Shown here: positions 8,278 to 21,825 of the stretch, one piece after another
How the letters are laid out: the number at the start of each line of letters is the position of its first letter
How positions within the stretch are numbered: the stretch's first letter is position 1
Source: a virus
Virus record (IMG/VR): IMGVR_UViG_3300030104_003549
Span: 16,050-39,147 of that record
Strand: one strand, 5' to 3'
DNA length: 23,098 bases
Translations under genes and position numbers: made by a program
The notes under the pieces: model-generated
The model's input: the letters and a program-made list of their open reading frames with translations, nothing else
What the model was told of the DNA's origin: nothing
The model's database searches: none

Positions 8278-8492
8278 TCAATCACCGCCAAAACATAATC
8301 CTTATGGATAAACTTGTATTCTCCATATTCTTCAATAGGTTTCATTGTAGAGAAGATTACTTTCTTTCCGACTAAAGACCCATGCTCATTAGCACCATCA
8401 ACAACAATACCTACATTATTTTCTTTGATAATAATGCCATTAACGCTTCCTTCGTCTTGCTTTACTATAATATAATTACCGATTGCTTTCAT
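8274..8492 (-). CDS. groES: GroES-like co-chaperonin (minimal)
   Basis: The lid of the GroEL chamber. The 72-aa sequence has the GroES order: an N-terminal strand 'AIGNYIIVKQDEG', then 'NGIIIKENNVGIVVDGA', 'GKKVIFS', and the C-terminal 'YKFIHKDYVLAVIE', which closely matches the canonical 'D-I-L-A-V-I-E' ending. Bacterial GroES is about 95 aa. The missing residues fall in the mobile loop and roof region, so contact with GroEL must be unusual. It is encoded directly upstream of groEL with an ATGA overlap and a GGAGG 7 nt before its start. Confidence 0.85.
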   Translation of the reverse strand: MKAIGNYIIVKQDEGSVNGIIIKENNVGIVVDGANEHGSLVGKKVIFSTMKPIEEYGEYKFIHKDYVLAVIE

Positions 8493-8671
8493 TTGCTTTC
8501 CTCCAACATTTGATTATATGTGTATTTTCCTTTCATACCTTCTTTCCATTTTCTTAAATAGATAAAAGAATCAATTACTTCGGGAAGACATTTCATACAA
8601 ACGTTTCTTCCCGAACACGAAATTATTCCTACTCTAGTTCCTTGAACTTTATTACAAACTAAACACTTCAT
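8489..8671 (-). CDS. Small zinc-binding protein
   Basis: A 60-aa protein with two CxxC pairs: C3-L-V-C6 near the start and C-M-K-C at about 25-28, with one more Cys between (IISCSG). This treble-clef or ribbon-like zinc knuckle is followed by a helical tail (YLRKWKEGMKGKYTYNQM). The ATG overlaps the upstream stop, with GGAGG in the upstream Glu-tail codons. Function unknown; it lies upstream of groES in the same operon. Confidence 0.75.
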   Translation of the reverse strand: MKCLVCNKVQGTRVGIISCSGRNVCMKCLPEVIDSFIYLRKWKEGMKGKYTYNQMLEESK

Positions 8672-8850
8672 TCTTCTTCCTCCAATGATGTTACATGGTT
8701 AGATAATTCATCAACCTTAACATAAACTTCCTCTAACCTATCAAGAGTTTTGTTATATTCATCGAGAATCATAAATGTTATTTTTAATATAGTTTCTCTA
8801 GATTTAGTTTTCAAATGTTCTTTAAACGTATGCATATCCAATGTTCTCAT
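8668..8850 (-). CDS. Small coiled-coil protein
   Basis: A 60-aa helical protein. Residues 20-55 (ILKITFMILDEYNK..., LEEVYVKVDELSNHV) have a leucine/isoleucine heptad pattern. The C-terminal E-E-E-E is encoded by the purine-rich Shine-Dalgarno of the next gene. It overlaps both neighbours by 4 nt. Function unknown. Confidence 0.7.
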   Translation of the reverse strand: MRTLDMHTFKEHLKTKSRETILKITFMILDEYNKTLDRLEEVYVKVDELSNHVTSLEEEE

Positions 8851-9134
8851 TCTTCTTCACTTCCTATAAATACCCACTTCTTTTTCATGGTTCTATCCGT
8901 ATAAGTCCATACATGATTCTTATGAAACTCATCCAAGTCTTTATCTCGTTGAGTTCTTTTAGACCAAGTTACTCCCTTAGTTTTTCTTTCGTTCTTATCA
9001 TTAGGATGATTAGATACATGACGTTGGGTTCTTTCAGTAACAGTTAAATCACCTTTTGGGAATGCTATTTCTTTTCGCTTATATGCCCAAGAATGGCCGC
9101 CTTTAATAGTTCTAAAATTCTGTTTAGTATTCAT
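8847..9134 (-). CDS. Basic hypothetical protein
   Basis: A 95-aa, strongly basic, hydrophilic protein (many Lys/Arg/His/Thr, such as 'TERTQRHVSNHPNDKNERKTKG'). The ATG at 9134 overlaps the JAMM gene stop, with AGGAGG 8 nt upstream; a longer reading from 9152 lacks a ribosome site. Composition suggests nucleic-acid binding, but no motif is recognised. Being coupled to the JAMM gene, it is a candidate partner or substrate. Confidence 0.75.
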   Translation of the reverse strand: MNTKQNFRTIKGGHSWAYKRKEIAFPKGDLTVTERTQRHVSNHPNDKNERKTKGVTWSKRTQRDKDLDEFHKNHVWTYTDRTMKKKWVFIGSEEE

Positions 9135-9700
9135 TCCTCTTCCTCCTGACAATTTTCACAAATCCATTCAACAGGAGGTGTTCCTGAATCAGTCCAACAT
9201 GAACATTTTTTTTCATATTGCTGTTGAATATGTTGTTCACCTAAATTACTTTCTTGAATAACTAGAACATTAGGGTCAGTATTCTGCCAAAACCCAAAGT
9301 GTTCATATCCACCAAGCACATATGCTTCTTTCATATTCTTTTGCCAAATATTGACAGTATTCCAATCAGTTCCGCTAAAATAAGCACGACCAAATGGATG
9401 AGTATGAATCCAACATTTAATAGGTAATTTCAATCCAGCAGGTTCTTGCATAAATGCAACAAAACCACTTGAACCTGATGATACAAAACAATTATCGTTA
9501 TCATCAATAACTACTTGAACTTCAAGGTTAGGTAGGATTCTAGTAGACATATCCCAAATAACATTAAAGAAAGCCTGTTGAGCAAAAGGCTCAAGTTGAG
9601 TTTCTTCATTCTCCCATAATTGTCGTCTACCCCAAGTATCTTGAATACTGAATTTTACATAGGCTCGTCTATTCTTCATTTCTTCTTCATATGTTATCAT
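9131..9700 (-). CDS. JAB/JAMM metalloprotease (deubiquitinase-like) with C-terminal zinc knuckle
   Basis: A 189-aa protein. The JAMM zinc-site motif is intact: H99-T-H101-P followed by S109-x-x-D112 (WIHTHPFGRAYFSGTDW). JAMM enzymes cleave isopeptide bonds or C-terminal extensions of ubiquitin-like proteins. The upstream catalytic Glu cannot be assigned safely by eye. A Cys-rich tail (C-S-C at 166-168 and C-E-N-C at 181-184) forms a likely zinc knuckle, then ends in Glu. I chose ATG 9700 because GGTGA is 5 nt upstream; the ATG at 9712 has none. It lies one gene downstream of the E1-like gene, pointing to one Ubl pathway. Alternatives are a tail-assembly peptidase or a CysO/Mec-type thiocarboxylate hydrolase. 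Confidence 0.85.
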   Translation of the reverse strand: MITYEEEMKNRRAYVKFSIQDTWGRRQLWENEETQLEPFAQQAFFNVIWDMSTRILPNLEVQVVIDDNDNCFVSSGSSGFVAFMQEPAGLKLPIKCWIHTHPFGRAYFSGTDWNTVNIWQKNMKEAYVLGGYEHFGFWQNTDPNVLVIQESNLGEQHIQQQYEKKCSCWTDSGTPPVEWICENCQEEEE

Positions 9701-10433
9701 TATATTCACCATTTAGTTTATCTAATTTCTTTTGTAGTTTAGCCGCTTTCTTTAGTTTACGACGTTCTCTCCATGAGAGCCTTTCCTTTCGGGCTTCTGC
9801 AATCTTTTCAGATGTAAGTCTATCTACTTCGATAGTATATTTTTCAAACTTCTTAGTCCAAGAATGATTTATGTTTTCGATTTCTCTAGTTAGAGTAACA
9901 CATTTTGCTTCTAGCAAAGAGTTCTTAGTTCTAAGAATCTTAATATCTTCTTTCTTTTGTTCTAGTAATTGAGCAACCTTATCAGCCGCTAATTTTAGAT
10001 TAGATTTCTTTCTATCAACAGAGTTTAACTGTTGCTTCAAGGCATTTTGCTTGAAAGAAAATCCTTTTGTATAAAATCTATTCTTTACTCCTGCTAAAGA
10101 CCTGCCCATTTCTTTAGATGCTCTTTCTAACTCATCTAAAGAAGATATTTCGCTAAGGTAGTTATCTTCATTCTTAGTCCATCTTTTTGCAGAATAGCCT
10201 GTTTTTCTAGCCTTTCTAGTCTTAACTGGCTTCTTAATTGTAACCTTCCTAGTATTCTTCTTTAGTGGTTGTTTAAGAACATTCTTTCTTAAAGAAACAA
10301 CCATAGCATATATGGATTGGTATGTTCTATCTTCTCCAAACTTAGTGTGAAATCTCTTCACAATTTGTTTAGGCTTCTTATTCAAGTGCATTGTTAAAAA
10401 TGCTTTTTCTTCTGTTGTCCATTTCTTGTTCAT
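9687..10433 (-). CDS. Double Myb/SANT DNA-binding protein with long coiled coil
   Basis: A 248-aa basic protein. The first Myb/SANT-like unit starts near residue 4 (KWTTEEKAFLTMHL...) and ends in 'YQSIYAMVVSLRK'. The second starts near 85 (RWTKNEDNYLSEI...) and ends in 'SLAGVKNRFYTKGF'. Between them is a Lys/Arg-rich linker (KNTRKVTIKKPVKTRKARK). From about 130 on there is a long coiled coil (KVAQLLEQKKEDIKILRTKN...), then a basic end 'WRERRKLKKAAK'. This suggests a dimeric DNA-binding regulator or packaging protein. I use ATG 10433 because AGGAG lies 9 nt upstream; the ATG at 10442 is directly against that site. It lies between the E1 and JAMM genes. Confidence 0.75.
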   Translation of the reverse strand: MNKKWTTEEKAFLTMHLNKKPKQIVKRFHTKFGEDRTYQSIYAMVVSLRKNVLKQPLKKNTRKVTIKKPVKTRKARKTGYSAKRWTKNEDNYLSEISSLDELERASKEMGRSLAGVKNRFYTKGFSFKQNALKQQLNSVDRKKSNLKLAADKVAQLLEQKKEDIKILRTKNSLLEAKCVTLTREIENINHSWTKKFEKYTIEVDRLTSEKIAEARKERLSWRERRKLKKAAKLQKKLDKLNGEYNDNI

Positions 10434-10446
10434 ATTTTTCATCTCC

Positions 10447-11004
10447 TTATAGATTAATCATCATAAAATCCTTTAGTTCTTCATCATTGAAGAATTTTTG
10501 CGCCCATTGTGCGCCCATTCCTGCGATTGCAATTTGTAGGAATTGCACGTTTTTATTCGTTCCATCCCAACTATCTCCTTGACAACTGTAACTTCTGTTA
10601 TCTCCTGCAAGTAATGTATCATACATCTTTGGGTCGGAAAGGCTTGAAATAAAAGCGGCGTTTCTACCCTGCGCTCGGAGGTCAAGCCATTTAATACTTG
10701 TGTTGTATAACGTGCGTCTTACTCCCAAGTTATCTACACAGCACATAACTAGGTCAAAACCTTGCATCTGTTTCTCTGTCAATATAGGATATTGACTCGC
10801 AAAATGCACTGATGTATATTCATCTCTCATAACCATCGCTTTGTTTTGCCCAACGTGTCCTTTCTTAAAGTTTTGATAAGTTAAGTTCTTATCCTCAACT
10901 GTATCGGGGTCTGCTACTGTTATGTGATATAAACCAACTTTGTCTAAAAACTGAATCAAAAATGACCCAATTCCACCTGCTCCAATTACTAATACTTTTC
11001 TCAT
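10447..11004 (-). CDS. E1-like/ThiF-family Ubl-activating enzyme
   Basis: A 185-aa Rossmann enzyme expected to adenylate the C-terminal Gly of a ubiquitin-like protein. It shows GAGGIG (residues 8-13), the acidic ribose site ADPDTVEDKNLTYQNF (31-46, with the family N40 and Q44), K55 in 'GQNKA', and the Mg-site Asp in CCVDN (D91). C141 in 'SYSCQGDS' is the best candidate catalytic Cys. No CxxC zinc pairs as in MoeB/UbaA are visible, and the length (UbaA/MoeB are about 250-270 aa) indicates a minimal E1. The ATG overlaps the upstream zinc-ribbon stop (ATGA). Alternative: a ThiF/MoeB-type sulfur-transfer enzyme; the JAMM and Ubl in the window favour conjugation or Ubl processing. Confidence 0.85.
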   Translation of the reverse strand: MRKVLVIGAGGIGSFLIQFLDKVGLYHITVADPDTVEDKNLTYQNFKKGHVGQNKAMVMRDEYTSVHFASQYPILTEKQMQGFDLVMCCVDNLGVRRTLYNTSIKWLDLRAQGRNAAFISSLSDPKMYDTLLAGDNRSYSCQGDSWDGTNKNVQFLQIAIAGMGAQWAQKFFNDEELKDFMMINL

Positions 11005-11162
11005 TCTAATCCACCTTCTCTAACAAACTGAATAAAATCCATTCCATATTCTTTATTACATTCTATACATTTACAATTTGTATCTGTTGGTTTCCAATGC
11101 ACTAATGAATAACTTCTGCATTCTAAACATTGTACGTCGTTAATTGCTTTATCTTTTCTCAT
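11001..11162 (-). CDS. Small zinc-ribbon protein
   Basis: A 53-aa ORF between TFB and the E1-like gene. It has C-L-E-C at 12-15 and a second cluster C30-K-C-I-E-C35, a rubredoxin-like or ribbon knuckle. GGAG lies 8 nt before its ATG, it starts 2 nt after the TFB stop, and its stop overlaps the E1 start. It ends R-E-G-G-L-E; a C-terminal GG is noted, but the body is a zinc finger, not a beta-grasp. Confidence 0.7.
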   Translation of the reverse strand: MRKDKAINDVQCLECRSYSLVHWKPTDTNCKCIECNKEYGMDFIQFVREGGLE

Positions 11163-11164
11163 AT

Positions 11165-12004
11165 TTATTTCTCCATTAAGTTATTTACTTCTTTTCCTTT
11201 AACTTCTTTAACTGATGTTTTGCCAATCAGTTGCAGAATTGATTTTGTTTGTTTATAGATATTTTTTCTCTGAAAAGACGTAGCACTTGCTACGTTCTCA
11301 GCAGTTATCTTATAACAATGCATATTTATTGCTATCCAGCAAATGCTTGCATTGTAGCATCTTCCTTTATTGAATGTAGTTTCAATGAGTAAACTCTCAA
11401 AGAAATCATATACCTTTTCACATCGTGCTTGAAATAGCGGTTCTTCTGAAATTAAAGCAGTTGTTTTGCTAAATTCAAACCTATGGTTTGAAAAGGCTGT
11501 TTGTCTTAAAGACTTTGTAATTCTATTAACAACCTTTCTTACCTTTTTAGGATTACAAGAAAATTCAGAACTAACTTCTTTATACGACAAAGGAGTACCA
11601 TTTTCTCTAAGAACATAGCATACTACTGCTGATGCCCTGACTTCAAGAGAATCTCCAGTATTAAAGAAGCCTTTTCGATACAAGGAAAGATACAGTTCTT
11701 CTGTTCTGTATTTAAGAGAAATAAAACTAAACTTAGATAGAATCATATTACAATGAGTAAGTGCATTCTGTACTGTTCTAGGAATAAGATTATCGGTATT
11801 CCATTTATTAAATTTGTGAGAACCTTTTCCTGTGATTATGGAACCTAGTCTATTATCTGGGCTTCTTTGTGGAGTTCCTTCTACATAAGAAACTCCTTCA
11901 TCGAAAGCGTCATAAATCATGACTAATCCACAACTAGTGCAGACCTTTTCTCCTAATCTTTCATCAAATTTAAATTCCCTTTCTCCGCATTCTTCACATT
12001 TCAT
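11165..12004 (-). CDS. tfb: Transcription factor B (TFIIB homologue)
   Basis: A 279-aa archaeal-type TFB, which bridges TATA-bound TBP and RNA polymerase. The N-terminal zinc ribbon has C3-E-E-C6 and C22-T-S-C25. The B-reader/linker follows (TPQRSPDNRLGSIITGKG, 44-61). Two cyclin-like repeats come next, the first around 'SLEVRASAVVCYVLRENGTPLSYKEVS' and the second around 'NASICWIAINMHCYKITAENVASATS'. At 279 aa it is a little short (cellular TFB about 300). I use ATG 12004 because GGAGA is 8 nt upstream; a TTG at 12019 is also open. It overlaps the upstream gene by 11 nt. It probably redirects host RNA polymerase to viral promoters such as the TATA box at 16299-16306. Confidence 0.9.
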   Translation of the reverse strand: MKCEECGEREFKFDERLGEKVCTSCGLVMIYDAFDEGVSYVEGTPQRSPDNRLGSIITGKGSHKFNKWNTDNLIPRTVQNALTHCNMILSKFSFISLKYRTEELYLSLYRKGFFNTGDSLEVRASAVVCYVLRENGTPLSYKEVSSEFSCNPKKVRKVVNRITKSLRQTAFSNHRFEFSKTTALISEEPLFQARCEKVYDFFESLLIETTFNKGRCYNASICWIAINMHCYKITAENVASATSFQRKNIYKQTKSILQLIGKTSVKEVKGKEVNNLMEK

Positions 12005-13259
12005 TATTATTCTCTCCAAGAAGTCTTGTTATTTCTTCATTTTTATTATATTTAGCATCAGCATCAGAATAGATATAGTTTCTGATGGTGTGAACTAAAC
12101 TAAGTAACATTTCATCATTCATCGTGCAAAGAATCCTAGCAACATATTGGTCGCCTAATGAAGAACCCGTTGCTAAATTATCAATACAAATCGGCCCACG
12201 CCATTCTGGAGCAGATAACAAAAGATATTGTGAATCAGTTTCAGGATTTATGATTGGTTTGTTATTTCCATCATATGCTCTAACTTTAGCAGGTTGCCAA
12301 ATTTGTACGCTAACTTTCTGTAAATCAGAACTATTTCTTTTATCTGTAATTTTCCAATCGTATAGTTTGCCTCTTACGAAGATATGAGTTATCTCTCCTT
12401 CATCATCATAAACCGCAACAATTCTCTTTTTGTATTTTTCAAGAGTTTCTTGAAGAAGTTGTTGCGCTCTTCTCTCGACAATATCTCCAGTTCTATTCTG
12501 TTGTAGAAACTCTTTCATGAGTTTTAATTCTGCTTCAGAAGGAGTTCTACCTATTAATCTTTCATATAGGTTACTGGGCGTTAGGTTCTTCCAACTGCCT
12601 CTAGAATGACCATGCCTATATGTATTACAGAAAGTATTCAAATCATCTTTTGATATTTCTCCCCAAATACCATCACTAAGTTCTAGTGCGTAAGTATCTA
12701 AACCTATTTGATTAACATTAAGTCTAACCTCAATCTTACTATATCTCCCTTCTCTTTCATAGAAATGATAAGGAACTTTATTTTCTAAAACATAGTGTAT
12801 ATTTTCAGGAGTATCTAAGTATTCATTCAAAGCACTAAACAGTTTCATTATGTTGCTCTCATTTATACTCATAATCGCTAATTTAGCCAATGCTCCACAA
12901 ACAGTATCTAGTGTAGTATAGTGGCCGTTAATGTTTATTCTTCCCTTAGACTTTTCTATACTAATCGGCATTCCACTAATAGTTAGTTGAACATTGAAAT
13001 CACTAGAATCAGGATTAGACTTAAAAGAAGGATTATGCCTACTATAATATCTACTACTTCTTCTTCTCTTCACTAAATTTCTTTTAAAGTAATCCTTAGT
13101 TGCAGAGAAGATGGGATTTGTCGAATTATGTCGATAATTATGCCAATCAATATTACAATGTGCTTCAACATAATAAGTTTCAGACAATATATCAATTTTA
13201 ACAATGTCCCTTGTTTGGCTGTCATCAGCCCTGTTTATTCTTAATTCTACTTCTGTCAT
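11994..13259 (-). CDS. Hypothetical 421-aa protein
   Basis: A large unknown protein at the head of the TFB-E1-JAMM gene run. Residues 1-60 include a beta-rich start. Residues 60-80 are very basic (KRRRSSRYYSRH). Residues about 85-200 look alpha/beta (QLTISGMPISIEKSKGRINI...). Residues 240-280 are helical. Residues 285-395 form a beta-rich C-terminal domain with 'APEWRGPICIDNLATGSSLGD' (350-370, split here by C358). The 'G-x-I-C-I-D' around C358 superficially resembles the active-site strand of E2 ubiquitin-conjugating enzymes, but the E2 HPN motif is missing, so I do not assign it. The ribosome site is weak. No family recognised. Confidence 0.85.
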   Translation of the reverse strand: MTEVELRINRADDSQTRDIVKIDILSETYYVEAHCNIDWHNYRHNSTNPIFSATKDYFKRNLVKRRRSSRYYSRHNPSFKSNPDSSDFNVQLTISGMPISIEKSKGRININGHYTTLDTVCGALAKLAIMSINESNIMKLFSALNEYLDTPENIHYVLENKVPYHFYEREGRYSKIEVRLNVNQIGLDTYALELSDGIWGEISKDDLNTFCNTYRHGHSRGSWKNLTPSNLYERLIGRTPSEAELKLMKEFLQQNRTGDIVERRAQQLLQETLEKYKKRIVAVYDDEGEITHIFVRGKLYDWKITDKRNSSDLQKVSVQIWQPAKVRAYDGNNKPIINPETDSQYLLLSAPEWRGPICIDNLATGSSLGDQYVARILCTMNDEMLLSLVHTIRNYIYSDADAKYNKNEEITRLLGENNNEM

Positions 13260-13263
13260 AATA

Positions 13264-13431
13264 TCACATCATAAATAATTTATCATCTACGTTGCTTTCG
13301 CAAGCAAGATGAACTTCCTTTTTAATTTCTTCGGGAATCAATAATTGACCCCCACATATTCTACATCTAGTGGCGATTCTTTTGCCATAGGCTCTATGAC
13401 TCGCTACATAGTCTGGATTCTTTTCTTTCAT
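13264..13431 (-). CDS. Small zinc-finger-like protein
   Basis: A 55-aa ORF with GGAG about 8 nt before its ATG. It carries C-R-I-C-G-G at 23-26 and 'HLAC' at 41-44, giving a possible C2HC zinc site, within a basic context (HRAYGKRIATR). It overlaps the upstream gene by 38 nt and ends 4 nt before the 421-aa gene. Function unknown. Confidence 0.6.
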   Translation of the reverse strand: MKEKNPDYVASHRAYGKRIATRCRICGGQLLIPEEIKKEVHLACESNVDDKLFMM

Positions 13432-13753
13432 TATACTTACTCCTTATTTTTATAAAAAATTCCTTATTGTTTTTTTCCATGTAATTATACATTCTTTTCT
13501 TATCAAAAACATCCCTTTCTAGAAACTTAATGAAACCTAATTCTTTCGCTTCTTCTATATCCCACAAGCATTTTTCGTATAAAATACGAATAAGACGAAG
13601 TTTCTTAGCGTCGTCTGATTTGGTCTGCTCACAAACATTCAACGTGTGAATTAAACTAATAAAACTATCGTCAGAGAAATCTCTCGATAAATGAATCGAG
13701 TAGAATTCTAAATCTGAATAACTAATCTTAGGTAATGAAATATTAGATTTCAC
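13394..13753 (-). CDS. Hypothetical helical protein
   Basis: A protein of about 119 aa. The best start is GTG at 13753 with AGGTGG about 6 nt upstream, overlapping the end of the reductase by 11 nt; a GTG at 13783 is also open. The sequence is charged and helical (KKLRLIRILYEKCLWDIEEAK..., FIKFLERDVFDKKRMYNYMEK), with no recognised motif. It is translationally coupled to the ribonucleotide reductase gene. Confidence 0.7.
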   Translation of the reverse strand: MKSNISLPKISYSDLEFYSIHLSRDFSDDSFISLIHTLNVCEQTKSDDAKKLRLIRILYEKCLWDIEEAKELGFIKFLERDVFDKKRMYNYMEKNNKEFFIKIRSKYNERKESRLCSES

Positions 13754-15599
13754 ATTGTCCACCTGCACAGGCAAGTTCTCCACTTAGGTTGGTATTGTCT
13801 TGGTTTTCAATAACTTGAGTTAAGTTAATTTCAGAAAGGGTTGAAATCATCTCTTCATATTGTTTCTTTGTTATTGTTTCAAATGGTGCTTGTTTATATG
13901 TGCCGCCATCATAAGGCAATACAGATAAGCCATTATAATAATGTCTATTCATCCACATCCATTCTCCTACATCTTCCCATTCCTTTTCTTTGATTGAAAT
14001 GGTTGCAGAAACATTGTGAGTATTTAATCCATCTTTATGTCCTGCCCGAACCCAACGAATACTAAAATTCTTTACTCTTTCAAGCAAATCAAATACCTTT
14101 TCTGTACGAATAATAGCATTATCTGGGGCTTTTTGCGGAATACTAATTACTGCTTGCTCAGTAGGATTAAAGTATTCATCTTCCACTAAGTCGGGATGAT
14201 TTTTTGCAAGGTAAGAATAAATTGCTTCATTCTTTCCTACTCTAATTCTACGAATATAATATTTATCATGCCAAGCATGAATACCACTTGAAGTTCCCAA
14301 TACTAAGGAAGTAGTTCCTGCTGGTTTAACGCAAGTTACTCTTGTTGCTTGATTAACTCCTATTACTTCAGCAACTCTTTTATTCTCCATTTTAGCAGCA
14401 AAAGCAGCCATTTCTAAATCTAGTCCTTCTACTACTCCAGATGCAATACCTGTCATAGATACTCCTAATAAAGAATCTTTTTCAGAGTTTTTTTGCCAAA
14501 TTTCTCTTAAATAGTGAAAATCAGTATAACCTGCTTGAAGTGTTCCTAAGAAAGAAGCCGCTTTAACTCGCTCTTCTAAATCAAACTGGTCTTTTACATT
14601 ACTAGCATTAACTTCTGTTAAGTTACAGAATTGATAAGGTCTTAATGCAATTTCACAGCAAGGATTAGTTCCCCAATCTTTGTCATTACTGAAATAAATT
14701 CCAGGTTCTCCGCTACCTGACATTTGTATTCTTTCCCAAAGTTGTAAAAAGAATTCTTTAGTTACTCTATGTCTAAGTAATACTGCTGAATTATTCGCTC
14801 TGCCTCTTTGTGGATTATTTTCCCACCAATTACCAGTCTTAGATGAAATCATTCCCATGTCATCAGCACTAAATAAACTAATCATAGCGGCTCTCCTAAT
14901 ACCTCCACTTAATACTGCGTCGGCAATATGACACATAATATCATGACAATAAATAGAGTTAAGTTGGTATTCACCGCATCGTTGAAGAATACCTTCGATT
15001 TTAACTAAACATTCTCTTAATGGCTGACTTCCTGGCGCTTTTCCACCACTAGTCTTTAATAGAGAACCTTTAGGTCTAATATCAGAATAATCAAAAATAG
15101 GAGTAGAAGTCCTAATTCCCATATAACATTCCATAAGAATCTTTACTGCATCTGCCCAACCTTCTATTGAATCTGCAATTAAATATCTTCTCTGTCTATT
15201 AGGATTAGGCATCTTTAATTCTGGTAATTGTTCAACATGATGTCGTTGAACAGAATAACCTACACCAGTTCCTCCTAATAAAAGAAACATCGCTTCACTA
15301 AATGCAAGATAAGAATCTATTGGCATATAAGCGCAATTGTAAACTCTATTTGGAGAAATCTCAATAGGTTTTCCACCAAACTGCATTGAACGCATAGAGG
15401 GTAATACTTTCTTAGTTAGTACAAAATCATCATAAACTTTGACAATTTCTGTTTCTAAATCAGGATATGATTTAATATGCATATTCATGTTTCTAGTTAC
15501 AATCTCTTTCCATGTTTCCCTTCTTTGCAGTTCTTCTTGATACTTAGCATACTTCATATGCACAGTAATATCGGATAGTATTTCTTGTTCTGTATTCAT
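13743..15599 (-). CDS. nrdJ: Class II (adenosylcobalamin-dependent) ribonucleoside-triphosphate reductase
   Basis: Reduces ribonucleotides to deoxyribonucleotides for viral DNA synthesis, using a B12-derived radical without oxygen. The active site matches the monomeric RTPR family: first redox Cys C89 (YNCAYM), thiyl-radical Cys C314 in NPCCEI with N312 and E316, and second redox Cys C325 in FCNLTEVN, the same 11-residue spacing as C408/C419 of the Lactobacillus enzyme. The C-terminal shuttle pair is C611-x4-C616 (CAGGQCEI). At 618 aa it is well short of RTPR (about 739), with a reduced regulatory region. ATG 15599 has AGGTG 6-7 nt upstream; a TTG at 15608 is less likely. It depends on host cobalamin and thioredoxin-like donors. 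Confidence 0.93.
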   Translation of the reverse strand: MNTEQEILSDITVHMKYAKYQEELQRRETWKEIVTRNMNMHIKSYPDLETEIVKVYDDFVLTKKVLPSMRSMQFGGKPIEISPNRVYNCAYMPIDSYLAFSEAMFLLLGGTGVGYSVQRHHVEQLPELKMPNPNRQRRYLIADSIEGWADAVKILMECYMGIRTSTPIFDYSDIRPKGSLLKTSGGKAPGSQPLRECLVKIEGILQRCGEYQLNSIYCHDIMCHIADAVLSGGIRRAAMISLFSADDMGMISSKTGNWWENNPQRGRANNSAVLLRHRVTKEFFLQLWERIQMSGSGEPGIYFSNDKDWGTNPCCEIALRPYQFCNLTEVNASNVKDQFDLEERVKAASFLGTLQAGYTDFHYLREIWQKNSEKDSLLGVSMTGIASGVVEGLDLEMAAFAAKMENKRVAEVIGVNQATRVTCVKPAGTTSLVLGTSSGIHAWHDKYYIRRIRVGKNEAIYSYLAKNHPDLVEDEYFNPTEQAVISIPQKAPDNAIIRTEKVFDLLERVKNFSIRWVRAGHKDGLNTHNVSATISIKEKEWEDVGEWMWMNRHYYNGLSVLPYDGGTYKQAPFETITKKQYEEMISTLSEINLTQVIENQDNTNLSGELACAGGQCEI

Positions 15600-15601
15600 C
15601 T

Positions 15602-15976
15602 TCAACACCTCAATTTTGTTTTCTTTGGGAATTTATCTATGGTTGTAAACGACGACAACCATTGTCCGTTTTTCAAAACGACCCATTCCTTTTCTTCTTT
15701 AAATTCCCATGAAGAAAAGTCCTTTATGCTATCTTCTCCATTGTCTGCAATTAAAGAGTCAATGGAAGTATAGGTTTTATCGCCATAACTGACAATAGTT
15801 TCACCCATACAGATTATTTTTGCTTTTTCTGTAAATGCGAGAATAGTCCCGCTTGAATAAAAATCTGGTTTAAAACAAACATTGTTGTTCAATACCGTTA
15901 GTTGGTTAAGTTTCCAACCCTTATCCTTTGTTACTAAATTATACGCCTCTGTTCCTATAAAATATTTTAAATTCAT
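15602..15976 (-). CDS. Hypothetical beta-rich protein
   Basis: A 124-aa protein upstream of the reductase gene, ending 2 nt before its start. It has many short beta-like strands (TVLNNNVCFKPDF, TILAFTEKAKIICMG, WVVLKNGQWLSSF), perhaps a small SH3/WW-like barrel. I chose ATG 15976 because GGTGA lies 5 nt upstream; the open frame to 15988 would start with TTG. It sits just after the terminator-like hairpin. Function unknown. Confidence 0.7.
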   Translation of the reverse strand: MNLKYFIGTEAYNLVTKDKGWKLNQLTVLNNNVCFKPDFYSSGTILAFTEKAKIICMGETIVSYGDKTYTSIDSLIADNGEDSIKDFSSWEFKEEKEWVVLKNGQWLSSFTTIDKFPKKTKLRC

Positions 15977-15986
15977 GCCCATCACC

Positions 15987-16026
15987 AAAAAAAGGGAGAG
16001 CCAAGACTATTAGCCCCGACTCTCCC
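15987..16026 (-). terminator. Hairpin plus T-run terminator after the Ubl gene
   Basis: Inverted repeat GGGAGAG (15994-16000) and CTCTCCC (16020-16026), 7 bp with a 19-nt loop. On the minus strand it is followed at once by seven Ts (15987-15993). It lies 31 nt downstream of the Ubl stop and before the 124-aa gene, so it should end or attenuate the Ubl transcript. Some read-through could feed the reductase genes. Confidence 0.7.
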
Positions 16027-16057
16027 GATACGAGAGAGAACTTAAAGATTACTAAAT

Positions 16058-16264
16058 CTAAAGTTTTCCTCCAACGATTGCTGGACTGAGGGTTACTGCC
16101 TCAATGTCATCCCATGCAATTTCGGAGATTTGCTCTCTTGATGTCAATTCACCATCAATAAACACCCAATGCGTAGGGTGCGTGTTGATTTGTTCTATTA
16201 CTTCTTCCGCACTAAGCGCAAGTTCCGTGTGGCCTGTTTCATTCATAATTGTTAAGTTTATCAT
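16058..16264 (-). CDS. Ubiquitin-like beta-grasp protein with C-terminal GG-KL
   Basis: A 68-aa protein. The pattern fits a beta-grasp Ubl (SAMP/MoaD/ThiS size): strands at 2-7 (INLTIM) and 13-17, a helix at 18-28 (SAEEVIEQINT), a strand 'WVFIDGEL' (33-40), a short helix, and a last strand 'IEAVTLSPAIV' leading to G65-G66. Two residues (K-L) follow the diglycine, so trimming would be needed, as for SUMO/NEDD8 or some bacterial Ubls. The start ATG 16264 has AGGTGA 5 nt upstream; a longer frame to 16315 lacks such a site and would include the promoter. It is flanked by its own TATA box and terminator. The E1-like and JAMM genes lie 5-7 kb away. The fold is assigned by eye; a MoaD/ThiS sulfur carrier is the main alternative. 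Confidence 0.75.
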   Translation of the reverse strand: MINLTIMNETGHTELALSAEEVIEQINTHPTHWVFIDGELTSREQISEIAWDDIEAVTLSPAIVGGKL

Positions 16265-16298
16265 ATTGTTCACCTGTGTTTTTCTTATGTTCTCTTCC

Positions 16299-16306
16299 TT
16301 TATATA
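16299..16306 (-). promoter_or_regulatory. Archaeal TATA box for the Ubl gene
   Basis: On the minus strand TATATAAA is followed by GG. It is centred about 38 nt before the Ubl ATG. A start about 25 nt downstream would fall near 16276, giving a leader of about 12 nt that just holds the AGGTGA ribosome site. This is the clearest archaeal promoter in the window and suits the virus-encoded TFB. Confidence 0.65.
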
Positions 16307-16317
16307 CCGACTCATTC

Positions 16318-16575
16318 TTAAGACATATCCTTGTCCATTATCTCATATTGTCGTTGTTCTGTTAGATACGAGTTTAATATCATATCTAGTTTTTCTGGTA
16401 ATGCATCAATAATTCCACATATTAGTTTTCTATTCAAAGAAATCCATATCTTGTGATAAGTATTGATTATTACCTTTGGTTCATCCTTTTCGTTCATAGT
16501 TATTACAATAGGGGGCAATTCTTCATCATCCACTACTCTAAATTCTACTGGTTTTGCTTTTTCTATTACATTCAT
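16318..16575 (-). CDS. Hypothetical protein (85 aa)
   Basis: An 85-aa protein following tRNA-Arg by 22 nt. GGAG lies 8 nt before the ATG. It has a beta-rich middle (PPIVITMNEKDEPKVIINTYHKIWISLN) and a helical end. The motif is not recognised. It ends 12 nt before the Ubl TATA box, marking the boundary of the upstream transcript. Confidence 0.7.
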   Translation of the reverse strand: MNVIEKAKPVEFRVVDDEELPPIVITMNEKDEPKVIINTYHKIWISLNRKLICGIIDALPEKLDMILNSYLTEQRQYEIMDKDMS

Positions 16576-16597: not shown

Positions 16598-16672
16598 TGG
16601 TGGGCGTAACAGGAGTCGAACCCGTATCTTCGGCTTAGAAGGCCAAAATGCTATCCATTACACCATACGCCC
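16598..16672 (-). tRNA. tRNA-Arg (anticodon TCT), CCA encoded
   Basis: On the minus strand a full cloverleaf can be drawn. The acceptor GGGCGTA (16666-16672) pairs with TACGCCC (16602-16608). The anticodon stem TTGGC/GCCGA carries loop CTTCTAA, giving TCT, which reads AGA. The T-arm is ACGGG-TTCGACT-CCTGT. Discriminator A and an encoded CCA follow (16598-16600). It starts only 7 nt after the stop of the 91-aa gene, so it is probably cut out of a longer mRNA. It would supply the rare-in-host, common-in-virus AGA codon. Confidence 0.93.
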
Positions 16673-17197: not shown

Positions 17198-17448
17198 CAA
17201 AATTCCTCCGTTAAAACGAATTCTTTTGTCTCCTTTTGATTCCAATATTGATAAACCAGCATAGTTGCAATCATATAGTTATAGTTAGTTGAACTAGGAT
17301 TTTCTTGAAACATCTCATAACACGTTTGCATATACACATTAGCGTTTGTTAGTCCTAATTCCTTTACTGAAGATTCAACAGGGTCGTGAACTGAGCCGTG
17401 TTGTTTCTTTAGTATTTCTATTGTTTTTTGTTCTATATTATTAAACAT
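17197..17448 (-). CDS. Hypothetical helical protein
   Basis: An 83-aa helical protein with GGAGG 7 nt before its ATG and an 8-nt overlap with the upstream gene. It contains 'YMIATMLVYQYWNQKETKEFV' near the end, amphipathic rather than membrane-spanning. No family recognised. Confidence 0.7.
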   Translation of the reverse strand: MFNNIEQKTIEILKKQHGSVHDPVESSVKELGLTNANVYMQTCYEMFQENPSSTNYNYMIATMLVYQYWNQKETKEFVLTEEF

Positions 17449-18043
17449 TATTAATCCTCCATTGTTCCATTTGTGTTTCTAAGGTAAACCAATTCGGTCT
17501 ACCTCGTTTACGCCATTCAGCGAAACGCCATTTTCCTTTGATGTAATAATGACGATAAGATTCAGTTACGAATTTCCAATCGTCATCATATACGTTATTG
17601 ATTCTATATTTGTCATCCATAGCAATAGATACTGGAGTTAGCCCAGTAGTGGGAAACTTCCAACTATCTTGCCAATTGATAGGCATTTCTGTATTTACTA
17701 TTCTTTGAAATGAACCATGTTCTTTTCCATATCTAAATGAAAACTCTTTGCATAGTTCATAACCATGCATATAAAGCCAATGAAAGTTCTCTTTACTTTG
17801 CCTAGCCCATATCGTTGAAGGGTGATTTAGCATAGCAGGTTTCATCATTAGTGAACCGTTTTCTTTGTGAAAAGCCTTAAGTTCAGCAAGAGTAGGTTCT
17901 TTATCATTTACTTGAACGTATTGAAAATACAATGCGTTAGTATGTAGCATTTGACAAGTTTCTGTTGGCATTTTGACAACGTGTTTATCAATCATCATTT
18001 TTGCTGAGATAACTGGACTATTTGATAGTGCAAATATATTCAT
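17441..18043 (-). CDS. Conserved phage protein, 'DKHVVKM' family
   Basis: A 200-aa protein like a family I recall from cyanophages and other tailed phages, without an assigned biochemical role. Shared features visible here are the N-terminal MNIFALSNSPVISAKMM, the block DKHVVKMPTETCQML (19-33), and 'HPSTIWARQSKENFHWL' (74-90), then 'SFRYGKEHGSF'. The aromatic- and His-rich C-terminus (YRHYYIKGKWRFAEWRKRGRPNW in part) may bind nucleic acid. AGGTGA precedes the start. Family recognition is from memory and function is unknown. Confidence 0.8.
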   Translation of the reverse strand: MNIFALSNSPVISAKMMIDKHVVKMPTETCQMLHTNALYFQYVQVNDKEPTLAELKAFHKENGSLMMKPAMLNHPSTIWARQSKENFHWLYMHGYELCKEFSFRYGKEHGSFQRIVNTEMPINWQDSWKFPTTGLTPVSIAMDDKYRINNVYDDDWKFVTESYRHYYIKGKWRFAEWRKRGRPNWFTLETQMEQWRINNV

Positions 18044-21624: not shown

Positions 21625-21741
21625 TATTTTTACCTCATTAATAGGGTGGAATAGGAGGAAGAAAGGAGCAAAATTCCTTGACTAGAGGAATTATTTAATT
21701 AACACATAATTGCCGCCTTTGCTCAACTTTCTTCCATGAAG
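21625..21741. other. Intergenic leader of the helicase gene
   Basis: 117 bp between tRNA-Leu and the helicase. It holds a 6-bp inverted repeat AATTCC (21672-21677)/GGAATT (21687-21692), an AT-rich TTAATTAAATAATT stretch on the minus strand just upstream of it that could act as a TATA element, and a pyrimidine-rich run before the ribosome site. No ORF seen. Confidence 0.4.
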
Positions 21742-21825
21742 TGTGGGAAGCAGGATTTGAACCTGCGAAGCAATACGCACAGGAGTTTAAGCCCTGCTCC
21801 TTTGACCATACTCGGATATTCCCAC
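21742..21825 (-). tRNA. tRNA-Leu (anticodon TAA)
   Basis: A class II tRNA on the minus strand. The acceptor GTGGGAA (21819-21825) pairs with TTCCCAC (21743-21749). The D-arm has TCC/GGA. The anticodon stem CAGGG/TCCTG has loop CTTAAAC, giving TAA, which reads TTA. A long variable arm follows, then the T-arm GCAGG-TTCAAAT-CCTGC. Discriminator A is followed by CTT, so CCA is not encoded, unlike the tRNA-Arg. TTA is a common Leu codon in this window. Confidence 0.92.

Follow-up and report, generated by a model that had tools for sequence, protein, structure and literature searches.

Introduction

Sampylation in the archaeon Haloferax volcanii relies on small beta-grasp ubiquitin-like proteins (Ubls) ending in Gly-Gly (SAMP1-3), a single E1 enzyme (UbaA) and a JAMM protease (HvJAMM1), with no recognised E2. 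The same kinds of components, also in the setting of an archaeal host, are encoded by the virus analysed here. The window, that is the whole stretch of 23,098 bases corresponding to positions 16050-39147 of a 39,147-base magrovirus record, carries genes for a Ubl, an E1/ThiF-type adenylating enzyme and a JAMM/MPN+ metalloprotease (Table 1). The three genes apparently form a near-universal core cassette of magroviruses, which we read, with a probability of roughly 0.6, as a cassette for reversible protein modification with the virus-encoded Ubl.

The magrovirus cassette departs from sampylation in being borne by a virus and in the details of its components. The E1 has only 185 residues, carries a Tyr in place of a canonical Arg and reaches 35 bits with the UbaA model (NF047750), the cut-off of which is 450; the JAMM protein and the Ubl are not close to the SAMP families, and the tail after the Gly-Gly pair varies from none to two residues. 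The PRTRC cassettes of plasmids and phages, made up of ThiF, JAB, E2, Ubl and ParB, likewise place an E1 and a JAB protein on mobile elements. The magrovirus E1, however, obtains 45.3 bits with the PRTRC_ThiF model and misses its cut-off of 144.75 bits, PRTRC_A is unmatched by the JAMM protein and PRTRC_C by the Ubl, and neither ParB nor an E2 was recognised. The logic of E1, JAB and Ubl (or target) is also that of Bil, of type II CBASS with Cap2-Cap3 and of other bacterial Ubl defence systems, and the magrovirus E1 matches the profiles of Cap2-type E1-E2 proteins; nevertheless, here the set is carried by the virus instead of acting against it, and the E1 is a minimal stand-alone enzyme without an E2 domain. 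Adjacent Prok-JAB and ThiF genes, the E1 also lacking the Arg of the NLxRQ motif, occur in crAss-like phages (Asinivirinae), but there the proteins are larger, the host is bacterial and no Ubl ending in Gly-Gly is recognised alongside.

The ubiquitin system of Caldiarchaeum (CsUb, E1, E2, RING protein and CsRpn11) links a JAMM protein to a Ubl made as a Gly-Gly precursor (PMC6043591). It differs in having an E2 and a RING protein, a precursor tail of nine residues and a place in a cellular genome, whereas no E2 was recognised in the magroviruses. Among archaeal extrachromosomal elements, Borgs carry JAMM proteins regarded as deSAMPylases and the Lilac Borg also a SAMP, but the E1 is described in the host genome and a linked Ubl-E1-JAMM set is not reported (PMC12660748). 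The phages lambda and T1 combine a viral protein of Ubl fold (TAPI) with a JAB protein (TAPK) (PMC1779556); that pair lies in the tail cluster, TAPK has an NlpC domain and there is no E1, unlike the magrovirus cassette, which lies in the replication module and for the protease of which only JAB was found. In the study presenting RaFAH, a MoeB/ThiF-family gene is listed as one of the auxiliary genes met most often in predicted archaeal viruses, with a brief mention of ubiquitination and with neither a Ubl nor a JAMM protein named (PMC8276007). Text searches of the literature returned no paper linking magroviruses with ubiquitin, ThiF, JAB or JAMM, an earlier mention being possible in Philosof 2017 and Prabhu 2025. 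Hence, save for the passing mention of one gene in the RaFAH work, the cassette seems to be previously undescribed.

Conservation of the cassette

One copy each of the Ubl, E1 and JAMM genes is present in 38 of the 38 magrovirus records of at least 75 kb, as is the gene for a conserved protein of 421 residues. Fifteen of these records were also recovered by a scan for DNA ligase; two of the fifteen were absent from the Ubl and E1 scans and had thus been sampled without reference to the cassette. The gene order is fixed, the Ubl being followed by a gene for a 128-residue protein, ribonucleotide reductase, the 421-residue protein, transcription factor B (TFB), E1 and JAMM, and then by chaperonin and ligase. 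An earlier sequence-only reading of this DNA had proposed that the three genes form one virus-borne modification system. Viral carriage was borne out, and no large record has the E1 or JAMM gene without that of the Ubl. The genes are not adjacent: in the window the reductase, the 421-residue protein, TFB and small open reading frames separate Ubl from E1, and a coiled-coil protein separates E1 from JAMM. The latter is not a constant member, the E1 and JAMM genes overlapping directly in three related viruses (L048-L050).

Relatives in IMG/VR comprise at least 181 stretches with the Ubl and at least 280 with the E1. In a scan of 84,980 species genomes of bacteria and archaea, close relatives of the E1 were found only on three contigs of metagenome-assembled genomes (L080, L081 and L082, from Maricaulis and Altibacter assemblies in GTDB). 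At least two of them carry several magrovirus genes, for example those of the 421-residue protein, the reductase, the E1, the JAMM protein and replication factor C (RFC), and they are probably misbinned archaeal virus. A cellular origin of the E1 was rejected on this ground and, because the cellular matches are limited to these contigs, the family is viral within the reach of the scan. The phage collection INPHARED contained no homologue of the JAMM or the 421-residue protein; searching with the E1 pointed to the crAss-like phages and their JAB-E1 pair. The ratios of nonsynonymous to synonymous substitution (dN/dS) of Ubl and E1 are mostly well below 0.3. The cassette is real and conserved and, judged by selection, functional.

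The ubiquitin-like protein

The AlphaFold2 model of the Ubl, built from 39 viral homologues, has a predicted local distance difference test score (pLDDT) of 89.6 and a predicted template-modelling (TM) score of 0.75. Its elements follow the order bbabb-3/10-b and the terminal GGKL is a flexible, disordered tail; the protein is thus confidently predicted to fold as a beta-grasp. The nearest solved folds retrieved by Foldseek are mostly ubiquitin, SUMO and NEDD8-type proteins, ThiS and a TtuB-sized sulfurtransferase partner, with best TM scores of 0.55-0.57. Among viral proteins a single match, an uncharacterised phage protein, has an E-value below 0.001, and weaker matches include tail-tip proteins and giant-virus ubiquitins. 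The Gly-Gly pair is invariant in 79 of 79 distinct homologues, the motifs NETGHT and HPxHW are invariant or nearly so, and the mean column identity of the alignment is 73%. The pair is encoded at 16072-16067, the window-specific Lys-Leu tail at 16066-16061 and the stop codon at 16060-16058. Homologues back a start at 16264; beginning at the in-frame ATG at 16315 instead would lengthen the protein to 85 residues.

Lysine is scarce in the mature Ubl, which contains none or one in 75 of the 79 distinct sequences. It accounts for 1.1% of the residues, versus 5.0-7.8% in the E1, the JAMM protein and the 421-residue protein, and the ratio Lys/(Lys+Arg) is 0.27 versus 0.54-0.62 in the same proteins. 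This scarcity fits the avoidance of self-tagging and chain formation. PinA is a phage inhibitor of Lon, and its peptidase inhibitor family (Pfam PF10465) was matched by 17 of the 39 Ubl homologues; these matches are marginal (best E-value 0.00046) and possibly due to chance.

The E1-type enzyme

By its sequence, the E1 is a clear member of the ThiF superfamily (Pfam PF00899, E-value 1.1e-18, 67.7 bits against a cut-off of 28.1 bits). Its profile matches UBA5, Cap2, the NEDD8 E1 (NAE), MccB, MoeB and Uba4, the closest solved relatives being the E1s of ubiquitin and Ubls and Cap2. Matches in PADLOC and NCBIfam are of a general kind only, the ThiF, ThiS-adenylyltransferase and MoeB models of NCBIfam giving the best scores, all under their cut-offs. 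The motif residues comprise GAGGIG (GxGGIG), D32/D34, K55, D91-N92, C141 (codon 10584-10582) and Tyr43. Invariant or nearly invariant in the alignment are GxGGIGS, K55, CCxDN, W/D/RAQGRN and SxSCQ, and C141 is kept in 111 of 113 E1s. Judged by eye, C141 is placed close to the second of the two Cys in the MoeB CxxC motif and to cysteines of the crAss-like enzymes, and it may be the catalytic Cys. In the alignment with MoeB-type enzymes, the magrovirus E1 has neither their N-terminal helix nor their zinc/crossover region.

The JAMM protease and the C-terminal tail of the Ubl

Homologues of the JAMM protein begin at the ATG at 9700. The catalytic set consists of E64 and H103-T-H105-P-x6-S113-x2-D116 (HTHPx6SGTD); in the alignment E64 and HTHPFGxAYFSxxD are invariant or nearly so, and the motif is found in essentially all homologues. 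Prok-JAB is matched by 39 of 39 homologues, profile matches include AMSH-LP and Sst2, and the AlphaFold2 model (pLDDT 82.4) has Rpn11, CSN5, RadC, PfJAMM1 and AMSH as its nearest Foldseek neighbours. JAB is the only domain found; matches of the profile to WD40 proteins were dismissed as summed sub-threshold repeats. The mean column identity is 36%, the N- and C-terminal parts being more variable than the core. In one magrovirus the gene is split across two frames (L186, G010:24164-24698), probably by an assembly frameshift.

The residues that follow the Gly-Gly pair number two in 51 of the 79 distinct Ubls, one in 12 and none in 16, and never exceed two; 30 distinct tails occur. Along a tree of E1 and JAMM from 93 viruses, a quick tree in which some branches are long, the tail sequence changed at least 46 times and the presence of a tail at least five times, a pattern that is the one predicted for a processed precursor tail. 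Of the 51 distinct Ubls with a two-residue tail, 31 end in Tyr or Leu, possibly owing to a P2' preference of the JAMM protein or to a codon effect. In the loci with a bare Gly-Gly the JAMM catalytic motif is complete (22 of 22), and pairwise JAMM dN/dS values in these lineages are 0.09-0.22, similar to those of tailed lineages and indicative of purifying selection. Since viruses with a tail-less Ubl keep an intact JAMM protein under purifying selection, the protein must, by this reasoning, cleave more than the tail. Its simplest additional task would be to release the Ubl from a substrate, and deconjugation or a related cleavage could be the more general role. There is a precedent in CsRpn11, an archaeal JAMM protein that cuts its Ubl precursor exactly after Gly-Gly and also removes conjugates (PMC6043591).

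The gene products named in the sequence-only reading are all encoded where it had placed them: a 68-residue Ubl ending in P-A-I-V-G-G-K-L, a 185-residue E1/ThiF enzyme with GAGGIG, D91 and C141, and a 189-residue JAMM protein with HxHP and SxxD, to which the alignment adds E64. The beta-grasp fold and the conserved Gly-Gly on which it depended were also recovered. Its assignment of the E1 to the ThiF type stood; the enzyme is not a plain UbaA-like one, given its length, the missing Arg and scores far below the UbaA and PRTRC cut-offs. Its proposal that the JAMM protein trims the Lys-Leu tail may well hold wherever a tail exists; trimming as the sole role does not agree with the tail-less Ubls.

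Search for transfer partners

The 421-residue protein is a candidate partner. Its alignment shows an invariant Cys358 within W-x-GPICIDNxxxxSSLGDQ, and GPICIDN visually resembles GxICLD, a motif of E2 enzymes. Profile searches of Pfam and PDB with this protein returned nothing. As an E2 it was tried by profile-profile comparison against a set of eight Prok-E2_B domains and UBE2D2; the alignment fell on the E2 cysteine but gave P = 0.3, no better than decoys; its identity as an E2 is not supported by this comparison and it stays a lead.

Genes for sulfur transfer were also sought. Rhodanese and ATP_bind_3 (NcsA type) were not found in 30 magroviruses, the controls being positive in 13/14 and 14/14 genomes, respectively; MoaE, ThiG and CysM were not among the families searched for. 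In this the magroviruses differ from quinolobactin/PDTC-type operons, where a rhodanese or thiolation partner is expected with the E1. No biosynthetic partner was recognised within the window. The scarcity of lysine in the Ubl and the lack of a rhodanese or NcsA-type gene both point towards protein conjugation rather than sulfur transfer, though neither decides the matter.

Proposed mechanism and alternative explanations

The cassette suggests protein tagging and untagging during infection. Its chemistry, mode of conjugation, targets and purpose are inferred as follows. The Ubl would be made as a precursor with zero to two residues past Gly-Gly, and the viral JAMM protein would take off any tail. 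As its conserved motifs suggest, the small E1 would then adenylate the free Gly-Gly carboxylate with ATP, a thioester on C141 being possible. The activated Ubl would be attached to viral or host proteins through their amino groups, either by direct transfer from the E1, the route of archaeal sampylation, via a host factor, or via a viral partner such as the 421-residue protein. Finally, the JAMM protein would take the Ubl off again, a role that would explain its retention in viruses with a tail-less Ubl. The chances seem even that the cassette is a self-contained viral system of Ubl conjugation and deconjugation, with a minimal E1 that dispenses with a classical E2 (or with the 421-residue protein as a new transfer enzyme), and that it serves a core function in infection.

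Several observations weigh against reversible protein modification. The Foldseek E-values of the Ubl are weak (best 0.008 in PDB), as expected at 68 residues, and sequence searches of Pfam and PDB related it to no significant known Ubl family; its low lysine content may merely reflect an acidic protein. The E1 is short and without a separate catalytic-Cys domain. In MoeB-type enzymes the Arg of NLxRQ (R73 of MoeB) contacts ATP, and in alignment with E. coli MoeB this Arg is replaced by Tyr43, a Tyr in 108 of 108 E1s. The other ATP-site residues are all retained, and the invariant R96, R110 and R114 could compensate; as the crAss-like E1s likewise lack this Arg and share a D-x-R motif further on, an alternative Arg may stand in for it. 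No match to the E2 family UQ_con was found in 30 magroviruses, and none to Prok-E2_B in a test of six magrovirus records; this fits a sampylation-like scheme or one with an unrecognised partner, a very divergent E2 also being conceivable. Moreover, host enzymes could provide sulfur, so the absence of a viral rhodanese is compatible with a sulfur carrier.

Such a carrier is the alternative that we regard as unlikely yet worth weighing. The E1 would adenylate the Ubl to yield a C-terminal thiocarboxylate as the sulfur donor for a tRNA, nucleotide, cofactor or metabolite, and the JAMM protein would only mature the tail or recycle the carrier, as in quinolobactin/PDTC operons or with CysO/Mec+. 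Folds of the ThiS/MoaD/TtuB type are among the nearest to the Ubl, and the best NCBIfam models of the E1, although below their cut-offs, point the same way. QbsE carries a two-residue tail, to which GG-KL is similar. Furthermore, siderophore and sulfur operons contain sets of Ubl, E1 and JAB (PMC1779556). This has to be set against the missing rhodanese and NcsA/TtuA-type genes and biosynthetic partners, the selection on JAMM even where the tail is missing, and the depletion of lysine, which a carrier would not need. It is improbable that the cassette acts in counter-defence, the JAMM protein stripping a host SAMP-type Ubl off viral proteins and the viral Ubl competing for host enzymes, with no dedicated targets. 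Bacterial Ubl systems do target phages, the many deSAMPylase-like JAMM proteins of Borgs have been interpreted as counter-defence (PMC12660748), and the termini of the magrovirus JAMM protein are more variable than its core; but a complete set of Ubl, E1 and JAMM in every large record exceeds the needs of a lone counter-protease, the Ubl is strongly conserved, and the dN/dS values of Ubl and E1 carry no arms-race signal.

Two further explanations have very little probability. Processing in virion or tail morphogenesis without conjugation has the precedent of TAPI and TAPK (PMC1779556), and some of the viral structural neighbours are tip attachment proteins J. Nevertheless, the cassette lies within the replication/early module (reductase, TFB, ligase, RFC, chaperonin) and is separated from the probable structural genes, which lie where the contig begins; it also has the E1 that the lambda pair lacks, and JAB is the only domain found in its protease. 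Equally, the genes could be remnants, or unrelated genes brought together by chance in an operon-rich module, with an E1 inactive for want of the canonical Arg. The replacement of this Arg in every E1 would agree with inactivity, and some other phage E1s (crAss-like) also lack it; universal co-occurrence, purifying selection and the retention of C141 and the remaining ATP-site residues, with three arginines that might compensate, speak against it.

Eukaryotic viruses are well known for stealing or blocking ubiquitin systems. As far as the literature shows, no lineage of prokaryotic viruses has been described in which a modifier, its activating enzyme and a deconjugase are all virus-encoded and make up an apparently universal core set. 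If reversible modification by the magrovirus Ubl holds true, this would be the first complete Ubl-E1-JAMM set shown as a hallmark of a virus order, acting in the most abundant archaea of the surface ocean. Magroviruses are abundant viruses of marine archaea, so the cassette is widespread. The lineages with a bare Gly-Gly offer a natural experiment in which deconjugation can be told apart from trimming of the tail, and the minimal E1 without the canonical Arg a tractable model for the fewest parts required in Ubl activation.

Genomic setting and minor observations

Magroviruses are tailed viruses; their hosts, the marine Group II archaea (Poseidoniales), are the most common archaea in sunlit ocean waters. 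Because its gene content fits, the source of the window is a magrovirus (order Magrovirales, Caudoviricetes), assigned to the level of order. The gene content comprises a two-piece family B DNA polymerase, an RFC small subunit, an ATP-dependent ligase, an ERCC4 nuclease and a superfamily 1 helicase, together with TFB, GroEL/GroES and a class II ribonucleotide reductase, at about 33% G+C. This agrees with the account of Aoguangviridae (Magrovirales) by the International Committee on Taxonomy of Viruses, which lists a split family B polymerase, RFC-S, ligase, TFB, GroEL/GroES, superfamily 1 helicase and low G+C (PMC10768690). The record opens with probable tail genes on the plus strand, and the replication-module genes, including those of the cassette, lie on the minus strand.

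Table 1. Location of the cassette genes and of conserved or intervening neighbours in the window
Feature	Position	Strand	Evidence
Ubl, 68 residues, beta-grasp, C-terminus P-A-I-V-G-G-K-L	16061..16264	-	Open reading frame, AlphaFold2, homologues
E1/ThiF-type adenylating enzyme, 185 residues	10447..11004	-	Pfam ThiF, profile matches, alignment
JAMM/MPN+ metalloprotease, 193 residues (189 from ATG at 9700)	9131..9712	-	Prok-JAB, profile, AlphaFold2
Conserved 421-residue protein, candidate partner, between reductase and TFB	11994..13259	-	Alignment, co-occurrence
Class II (B12-type) ribonucleotide reductase, between Ubl and E1	13743..15608	-	PHROG 367 5.7e-126, Pfam RNR-II_ins_dom
TFB, N-terminal zinc ribbon, just upstream of E1 region	11165..12019	-	Pfam Zn_Ribbon_TF 4.7e-9
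Basic coiled-coil protein, 251 residues, between E1 and JAMM	9687..10442	-	Open reading frame
Conserved 85-residue protein, upstream of Ubl	16318..16575	-	Alignment, synteny

The 85-residue protein has an invariant PP, W and R, is encoded close to the Ubl in nearly all relatives, and is a possible partner. Also close to the Ubl is a tRNA-Arg(TCT) at 16598-16672; a tRNA-Leu(TAA) lies at 21741-21825, toward the end of the window. A pyrimidine dimer DNA glycosylase is encoded at 17441-18043 (Pfam 1.4e-6), a UV-repair gene plausible in a virus of the surface ocean.

In the crAss-like phages, the adjacent JAB and E1 genes (L289:4287-8409 in DAC17, L290:3976-8405 in cr106_1 and L291:3040-7457 in PhiCrAssBcn2) are flanked by conserved genes for proteins of about 250 and 390-445 residues, and HSH and PC-x-GxGPI motifs are conserved in the larger one. 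With no Gly-Gly-ending Ubl seen, this Asinivirinae locus is possibly another phage Ubl-type cassette.

For several genes within 8489-9712 of the window, the last codons read Glu-Glu-Glu, since a purine-rich GGAGGAAGAGGAATGA stretch there runs into the start of the following gene; these overlaps resemble translational coupling via a Shine-Dalgarno site.

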